A DNA stretch of 22,257 bases, from IMG/VR virus record IMGVR_UViG_3300025648_000097, positions 1-22,257 of that record. One strand, 5' to 3'. The stretch is from a virus. This document shows, piece by piece, positions 2,641-22,257 of this stretch (positions within the stretch are counted from its first letter, which is position 1; each line of letters starts with the position of its first letter). A model generated the notes under the pieces. That model saw only the letters and a list, made by a program, of their open reading frames with translations. It searched no databases and was not told where the DNA came from. The translations under genes and the position numbers were made by a program.

Positions 2641-3630
2641 ATGACATTGCCGATTGATATTATTAGCAGAGCCTTAAAAGACATTGGCGCATTAGAAGCT
2701 GGTGAAACACCAACTCCTGAAGCTGCTCAAGATGCTTTTGATATGCTCAATGACCTTATAGACCAATGGTCTAACGAAGATATGATGGTTTATAACACCA
2801 CAGAAATCATATTTCCATTAATTTCAGGGCAAACTCAATACACTATTGGGCCAAATCCAAGCACACAAAACTTTGTAGGAGCTACTTTTACAGGCTCAAT
2901 TACAGGCAATATTCTTACTGTTACTGGTTTAACTACAGGCGCAATAGCCCAAGGGCAAACCCTTAGTGGTTCAGGAATAACCTCAGGAACTAAGATTGTT
3001 CAGTTCTTAACTGGTGCTGGCGGTCAAGTAAACGAAACAGGAACTTATAAGCTAAACATTACTTATACAAGTCCTGTAAGCTCAGAAACCATTACTGCTT
3101 ATTACCAAAAGCCTTTATTTATTGACCAAGCTTATGTTCGTGTAAATACTCAGAGCAATGGTCAGGCTGTGCAAAATGGTGGTTTAGACTATCAAGTAGC
3201 TATTCTTGCCCTTGAAAACTACAACCAGATTGGTTTAAAGACTTTGAATGGCCCTTGGCCTAAAGCCCTTTATTACAATCCTAATGCCGAATCAGGCAAT
3301 ATTTTTGTATGGCCTAATCCATCACAAGGTGAGATGCATATGTTCTCATCTACCATTTTTAGCAACTATACAAGTCTATATGACACTATTTCGCTTCCAC
3401 AAGGCTATGCAATGGCTCTTAGATGGAATCTTGCTGAAAGACTTATGCCGATGTATGGCAAAGCTTCTCCAACTCAAATTAGCATGATTAATGCTTATGC
3501 TGCACAATCTAAGTCAACAATTAAGCGCAACAATATGCAACCGATTGCTGCTGCTGGTTACCCTGATTCTATGTTGGTAGGCAGAGCAAAAGATGCAGGA
3601 TGGATTCTAAGCGGAGGATTCTTTAGATAA
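2641..3630 (+). CDS. P22 gp4-like tail accessory / head-completion adaptor with inserted beta-domain
   Basis: This 329-residue protein has an N-terminal helical part ([30 protein letters not shown], about residues 8-37) typical of the P22 gp4 family. That family forms a ring under the portal and helps close the DNA-filled head. The family core continues with [14 protein letters not shown] (58-71) and resumes at [13 protein letters not shown] (156-168). Between them (about 82-154) sits an extra Thr/Gly-rich beta segment with the pattern [14 protein letters not shown]. This is why the protein is about twice the length of P22 gp4. Related segments occur in the next gene. It overlaps the gp10-like gene by one base, the same gene pair as in P22. 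The start has TAGGA at 2631-2635. Confidence 0.85.
2884..3102 (+). other. Inserted beta-domain (type A, copy 1) inside the gp4-like gene
   Basis: Residues about 82-154 of the gp4-like protein read [18 protein letters not shown], then [22 protein letters not shown] and SSETITA. The order of motifs (FTGSI-G--LTVT, GQ-L-G-G, GTG--GTY) recurs twice in the following gp10-like protein. The flanking residues form a continuous gp4 fold without it, so it looks like an inserted module. The boundaries are estimated by eye. Confidence 0.65.
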
Positions 3631-5738
3631 TGGCTGACTTTGGATTTGTAGGCCCATCTTATGAAGCTCCTAGTATCTATCAAGATGCTCAGGAATGTAT
3701 CAACTTTAGACCTGAAATTGACCCTTTAAAAGCTCAGGGTGAAAGAGGTGTAGTTGCGCTTTATCCAACTCCAGGGCTTACTTCCTTAGTTCAATTTGCT
3801 AATCAAGATTCTGTTCGTGGAATGCAAGCTTTATCAGGTGGCAATTATTTAATGGCGGTTTGTGGCATTTATGTCTATGTTTTAGATTCTGAATTTACAC
3901 CTTATGTAGTCGGTATTCTAAATACCTCTACTGGCCCTGTCAGCATTACAGATAATGGCATTAGCGCATATATTGTTGATGGCAATAATCGCTATACATG
4001 GCGCATAAGCCAACCTGATGCTTGTTCTTTTACTGGCTCTATTTCAGGAACAACTTTAACTGTTACCTCCATTAGAGAAGGCAGAATTATTCAAGGTCAG
4101 TCTTTGTATGGCTTAGGAACTGGTTTAGGGGTAATTATTACTAGCTCTGGCACAGGCGGTGTCGGAACTTATCAAATTAACACCTCTTTAAATTTAACTA
4201 GCAGAGCATTTAATTCTAATGCTTCAGGTGGTTCATTTAATGCTTCTATTTCAGGAAGCCAAATGACTGTGAACTATATGTTTACAGGACAAATCTATCC
4301 AGGGCAAGCAATAGTAGGCAATGGAGTAACCCCAAATACTTTTGTAAGTGCATTAGGCACAGGAACAGTATTAAGCGGAAGCATTGCTACAGCAGGCACA
4401 GGATATGCCATAAATGATGTTGTATATGTTTTAGGCGGTGTTTATGGACAAAGCGCAGCTTACTTTACAGTAACAGGCATAGGAGGCTCAGGTGCTGTTT
4501 CTTCGCTATCTTTAACCTATCCTGGCTCTTATACTTCTACACCATCCAATGCAGCTTCTACAAGCACTACTGGTTCAGGTTCAGGGTTAACCCTTAATCT
4601 TACTTTTGGTACAGGTTCAGGTGGAACAGGAAACTATACAGTAAGCCCTAATCAATCTGTAAGCTCAGAAACTATGTATGCTGTAAATTTTGCAGTTATT
4701 CCAAGCACAGATGGCGCATTTCAAGGTGCTAATGTAGTAGATATTATTGATAACTATTTTATTTACAACAAGCCTAATACTCAACAATGGGCTGCTTCTA
4801 ATATCCTTTCTCCAGTAACTTATGGTTTGTCTTTTGCAAGCAAATTTACTGGCCCAGATAATTTAGTGTCAATCATTGCAAGCAATGGACAAGTCTTTTT
4901 ATTAGGCGATACCACTACAGAAGTATGGTCGGATGTTGGAACTTTCCCATTTCCTTTTCAGCGCATTCCAGGAAGCTCAAGTCAGCATGGTGTGGCAGCT
5001 CAGTTTTCAGTAGCAAAACTAGGTAATTCTTTTGCTTATTTGTCTAAGAATAATCGTGGTCAAGCTGAAATTGTTCAAATGAATGGATATTTTCCACAAA
5101 GAATATCAACCCATGCTGTAGAAAATACTTTAGTTAATAAGTATATTAAAGATGCTGTTGCCTATACTTATCAACAAGAAGGCCATGAAGTTTATGTTCT
5201 TTCTTTCCCAACCCTTGATTTGACTTGGTGCTATGACTTATCCACTCAAATGTGGCATAAGTGGTTATGGGTAGACTCCAATAATGTTTACCATCGCCAT
5301 CGGTCAAATTGCCAAGCAAACTTTCAAGATATGGTTCTTGTAGGGGATTGGCAAAATGGCAATATTTATGAGTTAGACCCTAATAACTACACAGACAATG
5401 GCGGTGAAATTCGCAGATTGCGAAGATGCCCTCATTTAGTAACTGACTTGCAAAGGCAATATTTTGATGAAATGCAAATTCAGTTTCAGCCTGGTGTAGG
5501 CTTATCTACAGGGCAAGGAAAAAACCCACAAGCAATGCTCAGATGGTCAAATGATGGCGGTTCTACTTGGTCTAATGAACATTGGGTCAGTATTGGCAAA
5601 ATTGGCAAATATCAAAATCGAGCTATTTGGCGCAGATTAGGCTGGTCTAGGGATAGAATCTTTGAGGTATCGGTTTCTGACCCTATTAAGGCTGTAATTG
5701 TGTCAGCTAACCTTAAAGCTACAGAAGGGGAAAACTAA
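3630..5738 (+). CDS. P22 gp10-like packaged-DNA stabilisation (tail hub) protein with nested insertions
   Basis: This protein has 702 residues against about 470 in P22 gp10. N-terminal [20 protein letters not shown] and the later FLLGDTTTEVWSDVG, FQRIPGSSSQHGVA and DLSTQMWHKW are characteristic of this family. The family plugs the portal-adaptor channel and carries the tail needle and tailspikes. Extra length lies mainly in about residues 133-350, which holds two copies of the beta-domain also present in the gp4-like protein. The second copy is itself interrupted. The propeller-like core resumes at FAVIPSTDGAFQGANVV. The start shares one base with the preceding stop and the stop shares one base with the next start, so the tail genes are tightly coupled. 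Function is well supported; the role of the inserts is unknown. Confidence 0.87.
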   Translation: MADFGFVGPSYEAPSIYQDAQECINFRPEIDPLKAQGERGVVALYPTPGLTSLVQFANQDSVRGMQALSGGNYLMAVCGIYVYVLDSEFTPYVVGILNTSTGPVSITDNGISAYIVDGNNRYTWRISQPDACSFTGSISGTTLTVTSIREGRIIQGQSLYGLGTGLGVIITSSGTGGVGTYQINTSLNLTSRAFNSNASGGSFNASISGSQMTVNYMFTGQIYPGQAIVGNGVTPNTFVSALGTGTVLSGSIATAGTGYAINDVVYVLGGVYGQSAAYFTVTGIGGSGAVSSLSLTYPGSYTSTPSNAASTSTTGSGSGLTLNLTFGTGSGGTGNYTVSPNQSVSSETMYAVNFAVIPSTDGAFQGANVVDIIDNYFIYNKPNTQQWAASNILSPVTYGLSFASKFTGPDNLVSIIASNGQVFLLGDTTTEVWSDVGTFPFPFQRIPGSSSQHGVAAQFSVAKLGNSFAYLSKNNRGQAEIVQMNGYFPQRISTHAVENTLVNKYIKDAVAYTYQQEGHEVYVLSFPTLDLTWCYDLSTQMWHKWLWVDSNNVYHRHRSNCQANFQDMVLVGDWQNGNIYELDPNNYTDNGGEIRRLRRCPHLVTDLQRQYFDEMQIQFQPGVGLSTGQGKNPQAMLRWSNDGGSTWSNEHWVSIGKIGKYQNRAIWRRLGWSRDRIFEVSVSDPIKAVIVSANLKATEGEN
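4026..4208 (+). other. Inserted beta-domain (type A, copy 2) in the gp10-like gene
   Basis: Residues about 133-193 read SFTGSISGTTLTVTSIREG, then GQSLYGLG, VIITSSGTGGVGTYQINTS. The motif order matches the insert in the gp4-like protein. It is separated from copy 3 by a short Asn/Ser/Gly linker. Domain edges are estimated. Confidence 0.65.
4236..4679 (+). other. Inserted beta-domain (type A, copy 3), interrupted by a second domain type
   Basis: Residues about 203-246 (FNASISGSQMTVNYMFTG, GQAIVGNG, TFVSALGTG) form the first part. Residues about 327-350 (GTGSGGTGNYTVS and SSETMYA) form the last part of a type A domain. Between them, about 247-326 (nucleotides 4368-4607), lies a different module with AGTGYAINDVVYVLGG, FTVTGIGGSGAVSSLSL and YPGSY. 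This resembles the AGxGY-type repeats of phage fibres. The layout is a domain within a domain within a structural protein. Confidence 0.6.
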
Positions 5739-5974
5739 TGGCAAATCAGATTTATGGCAATTCTCAATTAAATCCTTATCCACAGACCCCTTTGCTAGAT
5801 GAGTCTACAAAGATGCCAACTAGGTCTTGGCAACAGTATTTTTTGAATTTACTAAATTTTAGTAGCTCGCCTAATGCTTCCAAAGGCGCAGCAGTATTGC
5901 CTACTAACCCTGCTGGATTTATCAATATTACTGTTGCTGGTAAGCCTTATAAAGTTCCTTATTACAATGTCTAG
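5738..5974 (+). CDS. Small conserved virion-associated protein
   Basis: This is a 78-residue protein, MANQIYGNSQLNPYPQTPLL, with a middle SWQQYFLNLLNF helix and a C-terminal ITVAGKPYKVPYYNV strand. It starts on the last base of the gp10-like gene and ends inside the start of the cupin-SET gene, so it is part of the tail operon. Short proteins with a DEST/MPTRSWQQ-type N-terminus and a KVPYYN end are frequent next to gp10 genes in betaproteobacterial phages (recall). It could be a minor tail component or the position-equivalent of the P22 tail needle, but it is far too short for a needle. Function unknown. Confidence 0.7.
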   Translation: MANQIYGNSQLNPYPQTPLLDESTKMPTRSWQQYFLNLLNFSSSPNASKGAAVLPTNPAGFINITVAGKPYKVPYYNV

Positions 5975-6800
5975 TTTACAAGTTATAACTGAAGAAAAAG
6001 TTCAGCAATTAGAAGCTGAATTTTTAAAGCATGAACAAGTAGATTGTCCTGTAGTGCATCGCTTTGGCCCTAATATCTACATCCGAGAAGTCACCATTCC
6101 TGCTGGTACATTGTCCATAGGTCATTATCAAAAAACCGAACATTTAAACATAATGATTTCTGGTAGAGTAACAATGGTCAATGAGGATGGCTCAAAAAAT
6201 GAATTAATTGCTCCTCAAGTTTTTGTTTCAAAGCCAGGTCGAAAAATTGGATATATTCATGAAAAAATGGTTTGGCAAAATGTTTATGCGACTTTGGAAA
6301 CCGATGTAGAAAAGCTTGAATCTATGTTTCTTGAAAAAAGCATAACTTGGCAAGAAAATCAAAAAGCTCAAAATTTATTATTAACTTTAGACCATTCTTC
6401 TGATGTAGCTGATTATTATTTAGCTATTGCTGAATATGGTTTTGACCATGAAACTGTTAGAAAACAGACAGAAAACATGGATGACCAAATTCCCATGCCT
6501 TTTGGCAATTACAAAATGATGATTGCTAATTCAAGAATTGATGGAAAAGGTGTATTTGCTACAGGAAATATTGCTCAAGGAGAGGTAATTGCTCCAGCTC
6601 GCATAGATGGCAAAAGAACCCCTGTAGGAAGATATACAAATCATGCAAAAAATGCTAATGGAATTATGGTTTTGAGGGATAATGGCAATATTGATTTAGT
6701 GGCAAATAAGGCTATAAATGGATGCCAAGGCGGTAATTTGGGGGAAGAAATTACTATTGATTATCGTCAAGCCCTAAATCTTGCAATAAGGAGAAATTAA
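5967..6800 (+). CDS. Cupin-like / SET-domain fusion (putative protein-lysine methyltransferase)
   Basis: The start at ATG 5967 gives 277 residues. A longer frame from 5874 adds a false hydrophobic leader that is just the preceding gene read in another frame. Residues about 38-110 look like a small cupin barrel with IPAGTLSIGHYQKTEH (H53, H59), ISGRV and GYIHEK (H98). Residues about 182-268 carry SET landmarks: GKGVFA (193-198), GRYTNHAKNAN (221-231, the NH pair that contacts S-adenosylmethionine) and GEEITIDY (259-266, with the likely catalytic Tyr266). No post-SET cysteines are present. SET proteins transfer methyl from SAM to lysine. The substrate could be a virion protein or a host protein. 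It sits between tail and ejection genes, which favours a role tied to particles, but this is inference. Confidence 0.8.
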   Translation: MSSLQVITEEKVQQLEAEFLKHEQVDCPVVHRFGPNIYIREVTIPAGTLSIGHYQKTEHLNIMISGRVTMVNEDGSKNELIAPQVFVSKPGRKIGYIHEKMVWQNVYATLETDVEKLESMFLEKSITWQENQKAQNLLLTLDHSSDVADYYLAIAEYGFDHETVRKQTENMDDQIPMPFGNYKMMIANSRIDGKGVFATGNIAQGEVIAPARIDGKRTPVGRYTNHAKNANGIMVLRDNGNIDLVANKAINGCQGGNLGEEITIDYRQALNLAIRRN

Positions 6801-7589
6801 ATGTCAGGAGTCGCAACAGCAGTAGTTGTAGGTTCAGTTGCAGCAGGTTATTTGTCTAGTCAAGGGCAACAAAATGCTGCTCAAACTCAAGCAAATGCTG
6901 CTACACAACAGCAAAGTAATATACTTGCTGCTGGAAATACAGCATCTCAAAATTTTATTCCTTATGCTAATTATGGCGCAACTCCATTAGCAAGCCTTAC
7001 TTCTGGCAATCCTTATTTTAATGAACAATTTAGCAATCAAGATTTAAATGCTAATTTAGCTCCTAATTATGCTTTTGGATTAGATATTGGACAAAAGACC
7101 AATTTAAATGCCAGCAATGCTTCTGGCGGTGCTATAGGTGGAAATGCTTTAAAGTCACTAAGTGACTATACCCAAAATTATGCTCAAAATGCTTATCAAA
7201 ATGCATTTAATAATTTTCAAGCTCAAAGAGGCAATATTGCTGCTATTGATTTGGCAAATGCTAATTTAGGTCTTGCAGGTACAACTGGACAGTCTAATGC
7301 TCAATTAGGAACAGCAACTAATGTGGCAAATCTTGGAATAGGTTCAGCCAATGCTACTGCTGCTTCTCAAATTGCTCAAGGCAATATTTATGGTAGCACA
7401 GCCAATACAATAGGCACTATGGGTGCTTATAGCGCAATGAATAGTGGTAATAATGCACCAATTTCTATACCTAGCGGTGGAACAAGTTTAAACACCATTG
7501 GTAATTCAAGCCCAAATTATTATGGTTCTGGTGGAACAGGTGGTGGATTTGGTATTCAAGCTCCATCTACACCAATTCAAATAGCTTAG
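6801..7589 (+). CDS. DNA transfer / ejection protein (p32-like)
   Basis: This 262-residue protein is rich in Ala, Asn, Gln and Gly. It begins with a hydrophobic MSGVATAVVVGSVAAGYL segment, then AAQTQANAATQQQSN. The arrangement NFIPYANYGATPLASL, YAFGLDIGQKTNLNASNASGG and ALKSLSDYTQNYAQNAYQNAFNNF matches the phage family named DNA transfer protein p32. Its members are packaged in the head and ejected with the DNA to help build a channel through the envelope (known for P22-like ejection proteins by position). It has a clear AAGGAG site just upstream of ATG 6801. It is followed by two larger proteins that complete a three-protein ejection set like gp7/gp20/gp16. Confidence 0.8.
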   Translation: MSGVATAVVVGSVAAGYLSSQGQQNAAQTQANAATQQQSNILAAGNTASQNFIPYANYGATPLASLTSGNPYFNEQFSNQDLNANLAPNYAFGLDIGQKTNLNASNASGGAIGGNALKSLSDYTQNYAQNAYQNAFNNFQAQRGNIAAIDLANANLGLAGTTGQSNAQLGTATNVANLGIGSANATAASQIAQGNIYGSTANTIGTMGAYSAMNSGNNAPISIPSGGTSLNTIGNSSPNYYGSGGTGGGFGIQAPSTPIQIA

Positions 7590-20297: not shown

Positions 20298-20358
20298 AAT
20301 TGCCAATGAACTTGTAGAAACAACTTTAAAGCTAGAAGATGTAGCTCATGACAACTAA
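20203..20358 (+). CDS. Small helical protein overlapping two genes
   Basis: ATG 20203 opens a 51-residue frame, MKDFSMPFLTAKSLLDQYYK then AMISQNKNLAYKIANELVE and TTLKLEDVAHDN, to TAA at 20356-20358. AAGGA lies upstream. It overlaps the end of the nuclease-like gene by 95 bases in another frame and the start of the HNH gene by 11. The LLDxYYKAxxxxNxxLAYxIAxEL pattern resembles small phage proteins of replication regions (recall). Long overlaps are unusual, so a later internal start (20218 or 20266) is possible. Confidence 0.55.
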   Translation: MKDFSMPFLTAKSLLDQYYKAMISQNKNLAYKIANELVETTLKLEDVAHDN

Positions 20359-20638
20359 AAAAGAAAAGGAAAAATATGCAAAGCTGGCAAGATTGGGCTG
20401 CATATTGTGTAGGCAAAATGGAATTCAAACAACCGATACACCAACAGAGCTACACCATTGCCGAAGATTTGGTATGCCTAGACACCTCAGTCCAGTCATT
20501 CCCTTGTGTGCCTGGCATCACAGGCTTGGAGATGCCAGTATTCACCTTGCTGGAGCTAAAAAGTTCACTTCTTATTGGGGGTTTAGCCAAGAACAGCTCA
20601 TTGAGAAAACTAGAGAACTTTTAGATGACCTATTATAA
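20348..20638 (+). CDS. Ref-like HNH nuclease (RecA-dependent nuclease family)
   Basis: This 96-residue protein has CILC at 18-21, TELHHCRRFG with His36-His37, PLCAWHHRLGDASIH with Cys54, His57, His58 and His66, and a helical end FSQEQLIEKTRELL. This matches the small HNH proteins of the P1 Ref type, which cut DNA at RecA-made displacement loops (established for P1 Ref). In small phages such proteins likely act in recombination or repair of replicating DNA. The gene overlaps the VRR-NUC gene by 14 bases, suggesting a combined processing function. Confidence 0.78.
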   Translation: MTTKKEKEKYAKLARLGCILCRQNGIQTTDTPTELHHCRRFGMPRHLSPVIPLCAWHHRLGDASIHLAGAKKFTSYWGFSQEQLIEKTRELLDDLL

Positions 20639-20918
20639 AAAAAGGGTAGATGAGAACCAAAAGCAAATAATTCATACTTTTATTGCTTTAGGAGCTTCTG
20701 TCCTTAATCTTTCAAGAGTTGGAGAAGGCTGTCCAGATATTCTGATTGGTTATAAAAAACATAGTGTCCTTTGTGAAATAAAGAAAGATAGCAAGTCAAC
20801 TTTTACTGAGCCCCAAGTCAAATTTATGCAAGAATGGCGAGGTGGACCAGTAAGCAGAATTGATTCCGTAGATGCTGCTATTCGCTTAATTAAAATGCTT
20901 GACATGGATAATCAATAA
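20625..20918 (+). CDS. VRR-NUC nuclease (Holliday-junction resolvase-like)
   Basis: This 97-residue protein has the VRR-NUC layout: a helix (NQKQIIHTFIALGASVLNLSR), GCPDILIGY with Asp38, VLCEIKKD with Glu51 and Lys53, then FTEPQVKFMQEW with Gln64, and SVDAAI. Small phage VRR-NUC proteins are held to be structure-specific nucleases that resolve branched DNA (known for the family). It lies beside the Ref-like nuclease at the end of the replication operon, directly before a terminator-like hairpin. Confidence 0.86.
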   Translation: MTYYKKRVDENQKQIIHTFIALGASVLNLSRVGEGCPDILIGYKKHSVLCEIKKDSKSTFTEPQVKFMQEWRGGPVSRIDSVDAAIRLIKMLDMDNQ

Positions 20919-20973: not shown

Positions 20974-21231
20974 ATGGCAATGGGCAAAACAAGCAATCCA
21001 AACTCTACAGCAGGTATTCCTGCTAAGGGTGTAGTAGTTCCTAAAGGTGCAAGCAAGGCAGATATGTCTGGTGAGCGCATGGAAAAGTCGCATCGTGGTG
21101 GTGTTGCAATGGGTAAAGAAGATGCTATTGGCTCTGACAAAGAGTTCAATACAGGCCGTACTAGCGGTATCTGCTATGACCATAAGCGCACAACTTATGC
21201 GATGGAAGATAAGTATGAGAAAAAGAACTAA
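20974..21231 (+). CDS. Small basic Gly/Lys/Ser-rich protein, unknown
   Basis: This 85-residue protein, MAMGKTSNPNSTAGIPAKGV, continues PKGASKADMSGERMEKSHRGG and VAMGKEDAIGSDKEFNTGRTSG, ending CYDHKRTTYAMEDKYEKKN. AMGK occurs twice. It has little hydrophobic core, so it may be flexible and basic, perhaps binding nucleic acid. A ribosome site (AAAGGA, 20960-20965) is good. It sits alone between two hairpins, so it may be expressed at its own level. Similar small proteins seem to occur in related phages, but no function is known. Confidence 0.68.
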   Translation: MAMGKTSNPNSTAGIPAKGVVVPKGASKADMSGERMEKSHRGGVAMGKEDAIGSDKEFNTGRTSGICYDHKRTTYAMEDKYEKKN

Positions 21232-21306: not shown

Positions 21307-21756
21307 GTGGCTACCGAAACTATACTGACTAAAGAATTACTTCACAATTTATTTAATTATTGTGATGGTATTCTTTATTGGAAAAAAAGAAATGGTAATA
21401 AAGCTGGCACTAATGGTGGCAGATACCTTCAAACAGCAGTAAATAAAAAGCTTTATGGTAACCATAGGCTTATTTTTATGATGTTTCATGGCTATATGCC
21501 TGAAGTTGTAGACCATATAGATGGAAATGCTTACAACAATTCAATAGAAAACCTTAGAGAAGCCACTTATGCTCAAAATTGTCTTAATTCAAAATTAAGA
21601 AAAGATAGCAAAACTGGCGCAAAAGGTGTTACAAAATCAGGAAATAAATACCGAGCAGTTTTATCTCTTGGAAGCTTTGATACTATAGAATTAGCCAAAA
21701 ATGCTGTAATAGAAGCTAGAAATAGGTATCATGGGGAGTATGCAAACCATGGATAG
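21307..21756 (+). CDS. HNH-AP2 homing-type endonuclease
   Basis: This 149-residue protein begins with GTG 21307 and CGGAG upstream. The HNH domain (about 50-92) has HRLIFMMFHGYMPEVVDHIDGNAYNNSIENLR, with H53, D69-H70, N74, N78 and N82. An AP2-like DNA-binding domain (about 103-149) has TGAKGVTKSGNKYRAVLSLGSFDTIELA. This fusion is typical of free-standing phage homing endonucleases that spread between genomes by cutting a target in a neighbouring gene. No intron is evident around it. It overlaps the next gene, which is unusual for a freshly inserted element and suggests it has been fixed. Confidence 0.86.
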   Translation: MATETILTKELLHNLFNYCDGILYWKKRNGNKAGTNGGRYLQTAVNKKLYGNHRLIFMMFHGYMPEVVDHIDGNAYNNSIENLREATYAQNCLNSKLRKDSKTGAKGVTKSGNKYRAVLSLGSFDTIELAKNAVIEARNRYHGEYANHG

Positions 21757-21964
21757 TTGCCAATCTTGCAGATTTTTTTCTGTTGGTGAAAGAATGGGAA
21801 TCTGTAAAAGGTTCCCTACTTCTGTTAATAAATCGACTGAAGACTGGTGTGGAGAGTGGGATTACCCTAAAAACCATGTAATTGAGGCCATCACCTCTGG
21901 ATTGACTGTTACTTTTAGCGAAGAACAACCAAAAAAGAAACCAGGAAGGCCAAGAAAACCATGA
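21749..21964 (+). CDS. Four-cysteine (zinc-ribbon-like) protein with AT-hook tail
   Basis: ATG 21749 (GGGGAG about ten bases upstream) gives 71 residues; ATG 21740 is possible. MDSCQSCRFFSVGERMGICK then DWCGEW supplies Cys4, Cys7, Cys19 and Cys34, able to bind a metal. The C-terminus PKKKPGRPRKP (61-71) contains the GRP core of an AT-hook, a minor-groove binder of AT-rich DNA. Small phage proteins with this cysteine pattern are common, and the added AT-hook suggests DNA binding. It overlaps the HNH gene and, by four bases, the GroES gene. Confidence 0.7.
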   Translation: MDSCQSCRFFSVGERMGICKRFPTSVNKSTEDWCGEWDYPKNHVIEAITSGLTVTFSEEQPKKKPGRPRKP

Positions 21965-22257
21965 AATTAAAGCCATTGCTAGACAAAATTGTAGTTAAAC
22001 CTGATGTGCGAGAGCTTTCTAGCATTATTTATGTTGACAACAAAGAAGTGGAAAATATGGGAACTGTCATCGCTGTAGGTCCTGGCAAGAAATTGCCTAA
22101 TGGTCGCAGAGAAGATATGCCTATAGAAGTCGGAGCTAGAGTCAGATTCGGAACTATGAATGATGACAAAGGTGAGGAATACTTAAAATACTTCCCTTAT
22201 GTTGAAGATGGGGTTAAGTACCTAGTCATGAGTTGGCAAGATATTTGTTTTCAGGAA
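21961..22257 (+). CDS. Phage GroES-like co-chaperonin, 3' truncated by the window
   Basis: ATG 21961 overlaps the preceding TGA (ATGA). The 99 visible codons read MKLKPLLDKIVVKP, a loop ELSSIIYVDNKEVENMG corresponding to the GroEL-binding mobile loop (hydrophobic IIY), GTVIAVGPGKKLPNG, and VGARVRFG, ending KYLVMSWQDICF. These are the conserved blocks of the Cpn10 family. Phage versions (T4 gp31) replace host GroES on GroEL to fold large capsid proteins. An extra charged stretch (NDDKGEEYLKYFPYVEDG) before the last strand is longer than in typical bacterial GroES. No stop is seen before the window ends. Confidence 0.88.
   Translation, partial: MKLKPLLDKIVVKPDVRELSSIIYVDNKEVENMGTVIAVGPGKKLPNGRREDMPIEVGARVRFGTMNDDKGEEYLKYFPYVEDGVKYLVMSWQDICFQE

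Follow-up and report, generated by a model that had tools for sequence, protein, structure and literature searches.

A phage GroES with a conserved four-cysteine neighbour and P22-type head genes in freshwater viruses

The precedent for a phage-encoded GroES that serves a capsid protein is T4 gp31 (PMC6318259); its mobile loop has 22 residues, by the counting of that paper, as opposed to 16 in GroES, and its roof loop is absent. A GroES has also been reported in a siphovirus, in a paper that cites myoviruses and podoviruses as well (PMC4294664), and in a Roseobacter phage genus (PMC10149686). GroES is described as occurring often in viruses of the Southern Ocean (PMC8407431) and as a core gene of the HTVC023P-type pelagiphages, a podovirus group (PMC9599517); these uncultivated pelagiphages, in which GroES is likewise phage-borne, are likened to the present locus by description only. 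The DNA analysed in this study, referred to below as the window, is a 22,257-base linear virus record that ends within a groES gene (Table 1). The groES gene itself is a variant of a kind of phage gene that is already known. The new part, absent from the first-pass annotation of this DNA, is the putative module that groES forms with two small upstream genes, which are termed p79 and Cys4.

The groES reading frame opens with ATG and is still open where the contig ends. Its product matches the Pfam Cpn10 profile with 41 bits (cut-off, 21.1) over profile positions 1 to 89 of 93, which identifies it as a Cpn10 member, and it matches PHROG 3188, "co-chaperonin GroES," with an E value of 6e-12. Relatives were collected by an IMG/VR scan with the window protein, and the best 80 of 231 were used. 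All 99 residues of the window protein are identical in three of them (L002, L003, and L004), in which the gene closes with a stop codon after 103 amino acids; the rest of the gene, which the first-pass annotation had proposed to obtain, is thereby supplied. A stop codon is reached in 79 of the 80 relatives (100 to 113 aa), the sole run-off (L030) being at a contig end, and a frameshift in the missing part, named beforehand as the finding that would speak against the gene, was looked for in these relatives and not seen. The median dN/dS over 817 pairs of distinct relatives is 0.094 at a median dS of 0.84, which indicates purifying selection and thus a working gene; the intact relatives and this ratio rule out frameshift or decay. 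The claim of a phage-encoded GroES is therefore upheld by the Pfam and PHROG matches, the completion of the gene in relatives, the fold of the model described below, and the dN/dS value.

Table 1. Features of the groES region of the window
Feature	Position	Strand	Description
p79-type gene	20974..21231	+	85 aa; third module member; no Pfam or PHROG match
Cys4 gene	21731..21964	+	77 aa; CxxC...GxC.RxP...WCGE pattern, C-terminal KKxGRPxK tail; 4-nt overlap with groES (ATGA)
Shine-Dalgarno-like AGGAAGG	21943..21949	+	11 nt ahead of groES ATG, within Cys4 GRP-tail codons
groES (Cpn10) gene	21961..22257	+	99 codons, 3' end missing at contig edge; complete form in relatives, 103 aa
Mobile-loop segment, residues 14-33	22000..22059	+	Placed by alignment; 20 residues versus 24 in E. 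coli GroES
Hydrophobic IIYV, residues 22-25	22024..22035	+	Presumed GroEL contact
Roof-loop segment, residues 43-54	22087..22122	+	Placed by alignment; length equals that of E. coli GroES
Insertion of ~8 residues, approximate place, residues 65-72	22153..22176	+	Placed by alignment; ahead of last hairpin

The GroES structure was predicted by AlphaFold2 on 16 sequences, with a middling mean pLDDT of 66.9 and values below 50 for residues 67 to 76. The model was compared by VIA-align with PDB chains preselected by Foldseek. GroES/Cpn10 chains rank first (Z-score = 8.6 to 10.5), and the predicted model has the GroES β-barrel. The best chain is 5opx_P (Z-score = 10.5, RMSD = 2.1, number of aligned residues = 82), and 1aon_O gives a Z-score of 8.7; T4 gp31 scores 6.5 to 6.7, and unrelated oxidoreductases score at most 5.5.

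In the alignments, the window GroES is identical to E. coli GroES at 27 of 93 residues, to the GroES (G011 L168) of the MAG that contains locus L086 at 29 of 92, and to T4 gp31 at 15 of 93. The Cpn10 fold, the strand order, and the roof-loop length are like those of the two bacterial proteins, whereas the shorter mobile loop, the absence of a GG pair, the insertion, and the lack of an adjacent groEL set the window protein apart. The segment that we take to be the mobile loop, from established knowledge of GroES, is shorter by 4 residues than that of E. coli when measured from the first strand to the GTV strand, and GG does not precede the hydrophobic triplet as it does in the E. coli protein. 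The IIYV claimed by the first-pass annotation is present within this segment. Its four positions are occupied by I/V, I/L, F/I/Y, and V/I, respectively, so that all 81 sequences have hydrophobic or aromatic residues there; by analogy with other GroES proteins, IIYV is presumed to be the GroEL contact site.

The proposed comparison of the loop with T4 gp31 and bacterial GroES gave opposite results for the two phage proteins: the mobile loop of gp31 is longer than that of GroES and its roof loops are missing, whereas the window loop is shorter than that of E. coli and its roof is kept. The two proteins are alike in being phage-encoded with a Cpn10 fold, and both have more residues than E. coli GroES in the segment that follows the VG(D/A) turn, as judged from a low-identity alignment. 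Assignment of the window protein to the gp31 type was rejected because its loop is not lengthened (20 versus 24) and its roof is present, the gp31 alignment being approximate at this low identity. The roof segment is approximately 7 to 9 residues shorter in several divergent relatives, part of which retain the insertion. Such shortening occurs in several GroES lineages (divergent loci such as L124, L133, and L135) and parallels gp31.

Between strand VRF and strand YLVM, the window GroES has 23 residues and E. coli GroES has 15; this extra length of about 8 residues is partly cancelled by the shorter mobile loop. The residues T65, M66, N67, D69, E72, E73, Y74, L75, Y77, and Y80, in or just after the insertion, are invariant in 81 of 81 sequences. 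The extra charged stretch that had been claimed was found at residues 67 to 84 (NDDKGEEYLKYFPYVEDG). The "lengthened C-terminal region" of the same annotation held for the extra length, which is an internal insertion, and failed for the C-terminal location, as the identical protein of L002 ends four residues past the truncation.

Among 50,697 phage records in GenBank, 11 match the window GroES; two Manatee Spring phages have 50 to 53% identity, and the rest have approximately 34%. In IMG/VR, three clade queries returned at least 231, at least 573, and at least 513 groES-encoding stretches, in sets that may overlap. The groES clade is common in lake viromes and almost absent among isolates. The statement that phage GroES genes are rare beyond the T4-like phages and certain aquatic ones is accordingly correct, as regards this clade, for sequenced isolates and incorrect for freshwater viromes, in which hundreds of relatives occur. 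The Manatee Spring phages (MW202674 and MW202520) share the insertion motif and have Cys4 directly upstream, and MW202674 also has P22-like portal and coat genes downstream; their roof-loop segment, unlike that of the window protein, is shortened. The GroES of Xanthomonas phage PBR31 (34% identity) likewise adjoins large terminase and portal genes, but its mobile-loop segment is longer, and it has neither the insertion nor an annotated Cys4 gene next to it. The matches in Acinetobacter phage MD-2021a were set aside, since groL lies downstream in H16, the one record examined, which resembles a bacterial chromosome. The single genome-contig match, L086, lies in a MAG named uncultured beta proteobacterium. 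It was rejected as a prophage or a host assignment, as its 12.6 kb carry phage-type genes and 273 other genomes of the class gave no match (E value, 1e-15); we treat L086 as a binned phage contig that offers only a weak hint of a betaproteobacterial host.

The gene order in the relatives is Ref-type and VRR-type nucleases (variable), p79, Cys4, groES, a few small genes, small and large terminase subunits, portal, scaffold, and coat, so that groES adjoins the head-gene cluster. Downstream of groES, the large terminase is found in 52 of 52 and a P22-like portal in 26 of 26 eligible close-clade loci; in the two divergent clades, 40 of 76 and 10 of 31 loci have the terminase large subunit within approximately 1.5 kb on that side. 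The terminase belongs to Terminase_3 (Pfam), and the portal matches P22_portal (PF16510) with an E value of 2.3e-173. These P22-type coat and portal matches come from relatives L171 and L040; the genes sit past the end of the window. The coat of L171 has 424 aa and matches P22_CoatProtein (PF11651) over its full length (E value, 3.6e-33). The large capsid protein that the first-pass annotation had expected is not supported by this P22-type coat of ordinary size, and the size argument made for gp31 is thus not transferable. Ten relatives' records of 31.8 to 39.9 kb, all linear fragments by IMG/VR class, were searched for Cpn60, and none of the 10 yielded such a gene; a co-encoded GroEL was rejected as far as these fragmentary records go, and the phage GroES therefore likely depends on host GroEL.

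Some relatives carry a tRNA-Asn(gtt) approximately 1.1 kb downstream of groES (L025, positions 7051-7126; L028, positions 7153-7228); the window has no tRNA gene. Farther from groES, positions 5964-6800 of the window encode a 278-aa protein with a weak C-terminal SET-domain match (E value of 0.0004, just under the Pfam cut-off), which is unusual among virion genes. Two neighbouring virion genes (2641-3630 and 3630-5738) contain a common inserted stretch and match the same PHROGs (phrog_21413 and phrog_38233), which looks like the spread of a single repeat-like domain between the two genes.

In 75 of 76 close-clade loci, Cys4 stands immediately before groES, with a 4-nt overlap in 70 and a longer one in 5 (seen in L049); 5 of the 81 loci had less than 200 nt of upstream sequence and were dropped from this count. 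L080 has no adjacent Cys4, and a broken or partial match lies 1.1 kb away on the same contig (L113). When the search was reversed and started from Cys4 (best 80 of 90 relatives), GroES was found in 77 of the 80. L139, L140, and L166 hold Cys4 with no GroES within 2.5 kb, and the next open reading frame is nuclease-like as read from its translation; in MW202496, a Cys4-like gene is followed by an unrelated protein. In the two divergent GroES clades, which have approximately 40% identity to the window protein, every eligible locus has Cys4 upstream and overlapping groES (73 of 73 and 75 of 75; best 80 matches per scan, of which 7 and 5, respectively, with at most 300 nt upstream were dropped). 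Every eligible locus of these clades also retains p79 (61 of 61 and 62 of 62), whereas the VRR-type nuclease is found in 0 of 61 and 13 of 62 and the Ref type in 0 of 61 and 0 of 62. The three small genes are thus held more firmly than the genes that surround them, in counts that are not independent, as the loci of separate scans share ancestry and some contigs.

Upstream of p79, the window carries a Ref-type RecA-dependent nuclease (PF16786) and a short endonuclease (phrog_93) at positions 20348-20638 and 20625-20918; the pair occurs in the close clade and not in the divergent clades. Between p79 and Cys4, an HNH endonuclease (PF13392, phrog_99; weak AP2) at positions 21307-21756 overlaps the start of Cys4. 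Of 70 eligible relatives, 6 have an HNH match no more than 1.1 kb ahead of groES, and in 5 of these 6 the start of Cys4 is unlike the usual MAV/MAI, as it is in the window, which suggests that homing insertions replace the first Cys4 codons.

The four cysteines of Cys4 are invariant in 31 aligned members, of which 17 match Pfam HIPIP and 6 match HPIP_like (E values up to 0.1; best, 1.9e-4); the window protein itself scores 17.4 bits against HIPIP, under the cut-off of 22. The CxxC...C...WC pattern is that of the cluster-binding half of HiPIP proteins, whereas the first half of the HiPIP domain is unmatched and the GRP tail is an addition. A Cys4 profile gave no match to PDB sequences up to an E value of 5. 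Of 10 chains aligned to the Cys4 model (pLDDT, 66.4), only 2y8n_B reached a Z-score of 2.0, a weak match over 36 residues; it is a chain of a glycyl radical enzyme entry, and the small subunit of that enzyme carries iron-sulfur clusters with a HiPIP-like part. On these matches, "HiPIP-like" is a lead on the nature of Cys4 and not a statement of membership. The tail was also considered as an AT-hook, and this was rejected, Pfam AT_hook being found in only 3 of the 31 members. No paper joining HiPIP or iron-sulfur proteins with a phage GroES was recognized by title or abstract opening in a search that covered mainly open-access journals.

The arginine of the GRP tail, whose codons contain the AGGAAGG site, is encoded by AGG in 35 of 41 distinct close-clade upstream regions with a GR motif; over 12 other open reading frames of the window, AGG accounts for 19 of 110 arginine codons. 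Together with the ATGA overlap, this AGGAAGG-like site suggests, at the level of sequence, that the translation of groES may be coupled to that of Cys4. In the divergent clades, the GRP tail persists with an arginine codon that is mostly AGA, which indicates that the tail is not only a ribosome site.

In the reading that we favor, with a probability of roughly 0.7, the phage GroES caps host GroEL, replacing or supplementing host GroES for virion-protein folding, and the coat is the likeliest client. Following the T4 gp31 precedent, capping in place of host GroES is the most likely role. The protein would assemble as a seven-membered lid, which would dock on host GroEL via the hydrophobic IIYV loop and would take over from host GroES, or add to it, late in infection, during virion-protein folding. 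The likeliest client would be the 424-aa P22-type coat, whose gene follows those for terminase, portal, and scaffold downstream; the choice is plausible because P22 coat mutants use GroEL/GroES (PMC2267774). The shorter mobile loop without GG means that standard docking on GroEL is not assured. Also counting against this reading, the coat is not large, and P22 itself gets by on host GroES. A shortened and altered loop would also suit a phage protein whose binding to GroEL is unproductive and obstructs or diverts folding in the host, but the protein retains the fold core and the roof loop, and its sequence is conserved; we know of no precedent for a phage GroES acting in this way and consider it very improbable.

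The ordinary size of the coat leaves room for a GroES that mainly serves another client (portal, tail, or replication protein) or that tops up the co-chaperonin in cold lakes when the host's supply is short, and chaperonin analogs have been argued, for Southern Ocean viruses, to be a cold adaptation (PMC8407431). The position of groES directly ahead of head genes in all eligible loci favors a virion client instead. The portal, at approximately 701 aa, is probably larger than the GroEL cage can hold, and we regard this whole alternative as rather unlikely. A further and tentative reading, which we hold to be possible without favoring it, is that p79, Cys4, and GroES form a functional module in which Cys4, carrying zinc or an iron-sulfur cluster, works together with the co-chaperonin, whether as a client dependent on it, as a redox sensor controlling it, or as an adaptor delivering clients to it. 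The constancy of Cys4 beside groES in all three clades, the 77 of 80 loci found from the Cys4 side, the retention of p79 where the VRR and Ref nucleases are not kept, and the four invariant cysteines with their HIPIP and HPIP_like matches all argue for it; against it, neighbourhood differs from interaction, the loci share contigs and ancestry, Cys4 occurs without GroES (L139, L140, L166, and MW202496) and GroES without an adjacent Cys4 (L080), and no Cys4 gene is annotated beside groES in PBR31 or Serratia phage BF. That the three genes are a dedicated phage folding module, with a small metal or iron-sulfur protein as a physical partner of the co-chaperonin, for example in redox sensing or client hand-over, is a more speculative and rather doubtful extension; to our knowledge, no such partner of a GroES has been described so far.

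Phage co-chaperonins offer a natural way to ask which features of a GroES are indispensable. The explanation given for T4 gp31 is a larger cage that accommodates a larger coat; the clade of the window GroES, with a shorter loop, an internal insertion, and a coat of ordinary size, would need another one. The variation of the roof loop among relatives of the clade provides ready-made comparisons, and the fixed HiPIP-like neighbour points to a small protein as a possible dedicated partner of a co-chaperonin.
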